From an uncultured Gammaproteobacteria bacterium (GTDB lineage Bacteria > Pseudomonadota > Gammaproteobacteria > Steroidobacterales > Woeseiaceae), in assembly GCA_913063505.1 (NCBI GenBank), contig CAJXYT010000003.1, positions 1-60,721 on the forward strand: a DNA stretch of 60,721 nucleotides, given 5' to 3'. Under the pieces are notes generated by a model that was not told the DNA's origin, did no database searches, and saw only the letters and a list, made by a program, of their open reading frames with translations. The position numbers and the translations under genes were made by a program. Positions 33,694-34,294 of this stretch are shown one piece after another; position 1 is the stretch's first letter, and every line of letters starts with the position of its first letter.

Positions 33694-34068
33694 TTATGAC
33701 TTCGGACGCTTAGTTCCGTACTTGGAGCGTCCTTGACGACGATCGGCTACACCAGAGCAATCGAGCGTGCCGCGGACTGTGTGGTAACGAACACCAGGTA
33801 AATCCTTAACACGACCACCGCGAATCAACACAACACTATGCTCTTGCAGGTTGTGACCTTCGCCGCCGATATAGCTTGTGACTTCAAATCCGTTCGTCAA
33901 ACGTACACGAGCAACCTTCCGCATAGCCGAATTAGGCTTCTTAGGCGTCGTCGTGTAAACACGTGTGCATACGCCGCGCTTCTGCGGGCTTGCGTCTAGT
34001 GCTGGTACCGTACTTTTCACGCGTTTTACTTTGCGCGCATTACGTACTAACTGATTCACTGTGGCCAT
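33694..34068 (-). CDS. rpsL: 30S ribosomal protein S12
   Basis: [31 protein letters not shown]. Confidence 0.99.
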
Positions 34069-34193
34069 GGGCCTTCACTCTTCTTTTGTCTGTTTAAAGT
34101 TACGTTCATTTTGGCGCTTACTTGAGTGTCTCCAATTAAACGCGCACACCCGGCCGCCAAACTTTTCGAGTTCAGTGGACGGGATTTTTCAGA

Positions 34194-34264
34194 GCCCGCC
34201 TAGCGGCAAACTCCAAAGTATTTCGGGGCTCACCGCTAGGCAAGCCCCGGGGTTAAGGGCGGGC
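34194..34264 (-). promoter_or_regulatory. Pseudoknot-capable structured leader 5' of rpsL
   Basis: CGGGGCT/AGCCCCG hairpin whose loop GCCTAGCGG is perfectly complementary to CCGCTAGGC 3' of it; GCCCGCC/GGCGGGC outer pair. Confidence 0.65.
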
Positions 34265-34294
34265 ATTTTAGTGATGCATGCAACTCAGTGTCAA
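34265..34294 (-). promoter_or_regulatory. Sigma70-type promoter of str operon
   Basis: Minus TTGACA-N18-TAAAAT with GC-rich discriminator gcccgccc. Confidence 0.75.

Follow-up and report, generated by a model that had tools for sequence, protein, structure and literature searches.

Locus and sampled relatives

The 60,721-nucleotide stretch of DNA analyzed here (hereafter, the window) comes from a small genome of a Woeseiaceae lineage (Gammaproteobacteria) and carries, on its minus strand, the str operon, upstream of which a promoter, a GC-rich discriminator and four hairpins, denoted HP1 to HP4, follow one another (Table 1). The order rpsL-rpsG-fusA-tufA-rpsJ, proposed in a first-pass annotation of this DNA, fits the positions and lengths of the open reading frames; rpsL and rpsG were also translated, and fusA, tufA and rpsJ are assigned by position and length only. 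The letters and coordinates given in that annotation are all correct for the minus strand.

Leaders were compared across 60 genomes of the same genus and 25 genomes from 10 other Woeseiaceae genera, 87 leaders altogether. Pairing of HP1 and HP2, and of a pseudoknot helix proposed previously, was evaluated in 24 leaders of the genus, aligned with MAFFT (imperfectly at HP2), against 500 shuffles per structure, a control that leaves the relatedness of the sequences in. At the downstream end of the region, the surroundings of the rpsL start codon, AGGCCCATGGCCACA (34060-34078 and the relatives), are almost invariant in Woeseiaceae, and a 4-bp hairpin, GGCC-CAU-GGCC, could form over the ATG in the same interval.

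Table 1. Features of the str operon leader in the window
Feature	Coordinates	Strand	Description
Promoter TTGACA-N18-TAAAAT	34265..34294	-	str operon promoter; 11 of 12 consensus positions
Discriminator GCCCGCCC	34257..34264	-	GC-rich; between the -10 element and the inferred start site (about 34258-34256)
HP1	34224..34249	-	11-bp hairpin, UAGC loop; ~8 nt past the inferred start site; -21.9 kcal/mol
HP2	34191..34214	-	10-bp hairpin, GCUA loop; sequence resembles HP1; -15.2 kcal/mol
HP3	34149..34183	-	CCCG..CUGAACU..AGUUUGG..CGGG; missed in the first-pass annotation
HP4	34112..34146	-	imperfect hairpin, from predicted folds
rpsL (S12)	33694..34068	-	first gene of the str operon; 124-aa open reading frame, translation read

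Promoter and discriminator

The strong promoter described previously is confirmed and is conserved family-wide: the pattern TTGAC[AGT]-N18-TA[AC]AAT is present in 84 of the 87 Woeseiaceae rpoC-rpsL gaps, with a spacer of invariably 18 nt, and the matches to an exact pattern search were named as Woeseiaceae or, less precisely, as Gammaproteobacteria or Proteobacteria. The exact discriminator GCCCGCCC follows in 63 of these 84 promoters, including those of leaders that lack HP2. Promoters that ppGpp and DksA inhibit typically have a GC-rich discriminator (PMC9304144), and the str promoter shares with stringently controlled rRNA and ribosomal protein promoters the succession of a -10 element and such a discriminator; by analogy, the str promoter might be subject to ppGpp/DksA control.

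In one relative, G070 (L062 and L068), two exact matches to the str promoter lie 57 bases apart, a tandem duplication that could be real or an assembly error. In L060 (genome G038, same genus), approximately seven 26-nt tandem repeats (TAGGGTCCGTGCCCGGTTTTATGAAA) occupy positions 68-252, in the interval between the promoter and HP1.

HP1 and HP2 are conserved local hairpins

The 7-bp pairing reported at the start of the leader, CGGGGCT (34249-34243) with AGCCCCG (34230-34224), is part of HP1, but the 12-nt loop assigned to it does not stay open, because G-U pairs shrink it to 4 nt. With these pairs included, HP1 reads CGGGGCUUGCC-UAGC-GGUGAGCCCCG and comprises 11 bp at -21.9 kcal/mol, compared with -12.8 kcal/mol for the 7-bp version; in the alignments of relatives, the pairs that close the loop themselves covary. 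HP2 reads GGAGUUUGCC-GCUA-GGCGGGCUCU, and half of it consists of the downstream 9-mer that had been taken for a pseudoknot partner.

Across the 24 genus leaders, HP1 and HP2, read as local hairpins, are paired in 89.5% of the cells and show two-sided changes at 14 of 21 pairs, with a covariation score of 0.399 against 0.271 in the shuffled alignments (0/500 shuffles, relatedness ignored). All five measures exceed those of each of the 500 shuffles, again with relatedness ignored. HP2 by itself is 84.6% paired in these leaders, with two-sided changes at 9 of its 10 pairs. At the family level (30 leaders), HP1 is 87.3% paired and has 33 two-sided changes (0/500 shuffles, relatedness ignored), and in L140, the stem sequence is quite different but the pairing is kept. 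HP1 occurs in most of Woeseiaceae, and a larger hairpin takes its place, after the same promoter type, in a sister family. The stem of HP1 is kept across the relatives and its loop is free to vary; HP2 is variable and is missing from the shortest leaders.

The similarity between HP1 and HP2 exceeds that in shuffles in the window and in some relatives and is clear in only about one third of the 24 leaders, the window included. A tandem duplication of HP1 was therefore rejected as the general origin of HP2, although in the window and in the leaders with clear similarity, HP2 likely originated in this way. A dispersed repeat or REP-type element was also considered for HP1 and rejected, given that a single strong hit to the HP1 model occurs in the genome of the window.

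Downstream hairpins, leader length and terminators

HP3 is 86.7% paired and includes 20 cells with two-sided changes, both values being reached in 0 of 500 shuffles (relatedness ignored). HP3 and HP4 are present in most of the long Woeseiaceae leaders, whereas in eleven members of the genus the leader measures only about 70-106 nt and contains HP1 alone or HP1 and HP2. In genus g10 (L127-L131; genomes of 1.1-1.8 Mb), the promoter is kept and the hairpins are lost, leaving leaders of 40-76 nt; this is a second small-genome lineage in Woeseiaceae and contrasts with the equally small genome of the window, where the leader is retained. In L045, an insertion that begins with GTAGGAGCGGGCCATGCCCGCGA and that, we presume, resembles a REP-type palindromic repeat lies in the interval between HP1 and HP3.

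Terminator-like hairpins followed by a U-run were detected in 26 of the 87 leaders, compared with 1.3 expected from dinucleotide shuffles, an approximately 20-fold enrichment. Fifteen of these sites are at HP1 and 11 at the place of HP4, with one leader containing both and one other having a site only at HP2; in several other Woeseiaceae genera, the hairpin and U-run at the HP4 place resemble an intrinsic terminator. In the 10 nt past HP1, the U fraction is 0.39, compared with 0.21 elsewhere (relatedness ignored). No terminator-like site was found in about 70% of the relatives' leaders in the 87-leader set, and neither of two scans identified an intrinsic terminator in the leader of the window. 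Closely related genomes show the rpsL leader passing from a terminator form to a non-terminator form or back.

Proposed function of the leader

HP1 to HP4 fold as local hairpins and are conserved, and the structure upstream of rpsL, a strong promoter and a GC-rich discriminator followed by serial local hairpins, is probably a leader of the rpsL-leader attenuator type, with the U-runs eroded in the window. Under this scheme, HP1 would fold on emerging from RNA polymerase; in folds of the growing chain, HP1 is finished before HP2 is synthesized. The leader would belong to the loosely defined "rpsL-leader" kind, in which a hairpin and a U-run would stop some of the transcripts early, and a signal, for which a ribosomal protein or the state of elongation is a candidate, might relieve this early termination. 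By analogy, S7 and S12 are candidates for the sensed signal. Premature termination is proposed for the relatives, not for the genome of the window: because the U-runs are gone in its lineage, the hairpins there are less likely to be a functional intrinsic terminator than a pause, a site for a protein or a 5' stabilizing cap.

Three other readings of the leader were considered. The hairpins could be purely mRNA-stabilizing or processing elements that block attack on the 5' end or form an RNase III site, without any regulation. Such a role would suit the short stretch of ~8 nt that separates HP1 from the inferred start site, the kept stem with its variable loop and the lack of U-runs in the window, but it is difficult to reconcile with the U-rich tails after HP1 in many relatives, with the enrichment of terminator-like hairpins and with g10, a reduced-genome genus that does without the leader altogether; we consider it unlikely, although worth keeping in view. 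Alternatively, by analogy with other autogenous ribosomal protein leaders, S7 or S12 might bind the leader, most likely near HP3, and repress translation. In the long leaders, no RNA part is more conserved in sequence than HP3 and the GGGUGCGCGCG that follows it, and ribosomal protein leaders are often lineage-specific (PMC7247131), but HP3 is absent from the eleven genus members with short leaders, and no Rfam ribosomal protein leader was matched: the search with the leader of the window, up to E = 5, yielded only one chance hit, and the searches with six relatives, up to E = 1, yielded two sub-threshold snoRNA hits (L009). Direct repression by either protein is a doubtful explanation. Finally, a novel attenuator that senses a ribosomal protein or the polymerase, with two alternative terminator places and, in the reduced-genome lineage of the window, a U-run-free switch between the two local hairpins and a 22-bp hairpin, seems quite improbable as an interpretation of the str leader of Woeseiaceae.

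Long-range pairing

The 22-bp hairpin, which was absent from the first-pass annotation, combines the 5' arm of HP1 with the 3' arm of HP2 and has the lowest energy of all nested folds in the window (-45.4 kcal/mol, z -5.8), 8 kcal/mol more stable than HP1 and HP2 together (-37.1 kcal/mol). The stems of the two hairpins are similar, so that their arms are automatically cross-complementary; in the relatives, the cross-hairpin pairs often only because of the GC-rich motif common to both hairpins, with 73.8% paired against 72.9% in shuffles (68/500; 24 relatives).

In the small-genome lineage of the window, HP1 and HP2 might still form a bistable switch with the cross-hairpin, or their UAGC and GCUA loops might kiss. 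L004, like the window, has the cross-hairpin as its nested minimum, and the complementary loops are retained in L002, L003 and L004. However, the minimum of L003 consists of the two local hairpins, the three sequences have invariant loops and hence no covariation, and the loops of the other relatives are not complementary, which makes either arrangement very unlikely.

The first-pass annotation interpreted the segment as an H-type pseudoknot that forms in promoter-initiated RNA, competes with an outer pairing formed when RNA is read through from upstream, and could in this way regulate the str operon. The complementarity is present in the sequence, both between GCCTAGCGG (34241-34233) and CCGCTAGGC (34206-34198), which as an isolated 9-bp helix has an energy of -17.2 kcal/mol, and between GCCCGCC (34264-34258) and GGCGGGC (34200-34194), but the conservation of the former is that of shuffled sequences: in the 24 genus leaders, the pseudoknot helix is 57.6% paired, compared with 56.7% in shuffles, 180 of 500 of which score as high, and no covariation of the 9-bp complementarity was detected among close relatives. 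In L003, the closest relative, the innermost pair of HP1 is changed from C-G to U-A, which leaves HP1 intact and introduces one mismatch into the pseudoknot. The energies of the 7-bp hairpin (-12.8 kcal/mol) and the helix sum to about -30 kcal/mol before any loop penalty, worse than either nested fold, and a single nucleotide would need to span the 9-bp helix. As for the outer pairing, its 5' part coincides with the promoter discriminator, so the conservation of GCCCGCC, which is also present where HP2 is missing, is not a sign of RNA pairing. Regulation by these alternative pairings is thus extremely improbable.

With pair counts no better than those of shuffles, both the pseudoknot stem and the long cross-hairpin were rejected as conserved structures. 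This segment of the leader is structured far beyond chance, but not as a pseudoknot; most likely, the apparent pseudoknot is a by-product of HP1 and HP2 having similar stems, which accounts for the long-range complementarity. More generally, similar adjacent hairpins can yield convincing but false pseudoknots.

Comparison with known leaders

The S7 autoregulatory site that Escherichia coli has in the same operon is placed in the rpsL-rpsG gap instead of the 5' leader. The rpsL-rpsG gap of the window is indeed 18 nt, as noted previously, but the suggestion that this short gap caused S7 control to move to the leader is not supported, because the gaps of HP1-bearing relatives range from 12 to 118 nt, so that, as far as gap length goes, which is the only basis of this comparison, a short gap does not accompany the leader. 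Of the initial proposal of a structured regulatory leader before rpsL, the strong promoter and the structured leader are supported, whereas the pseudoknot, the outer pairing and the S7 relocation are not.

A structured RNA in the same rpoC-rpsL place is the SAR11 rpsL motif (Meyer et al. 2009, PMC2704228), in which a bulged P1 carries a junction of three stems. Judged by this description, the Woeseiaceae leader appears different, with folds that consist of serial hairpins and in which no junction was found.

The closest correspondence is with the rpsL-leaders with predicted terminators from Pseudomonas, Xanthomonas, Rickettsia and Listeria, a "multiform" group, highly diverse between lineages (Naville & Gautheret 2010, PMC2965389), that had been predicted earlier by Merino & Yanofsky (cited in PMC2965389). 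The Woeseiaceae leader shares with this attenuator type its place, in the 5' UTR of rpsL, the first gene of the str operon, downstream of the promoter, and the relatives also share the GC-rich hairpin with a U-run, which the window lacks. Woeseiaceae have two separate terminator places, HP1 adjoining the start site and HP4 near the gene. No antiterminator was identified; the cross-hairpin of the window exists but is not conserved in the 24 relatives. Thus, the leader is one more example of an already known kind of ribosomal protein leader, lineage-specific and as yet uncatalogued, and it adds a covariation-supported str operon leader structure for a largely uncultured family.
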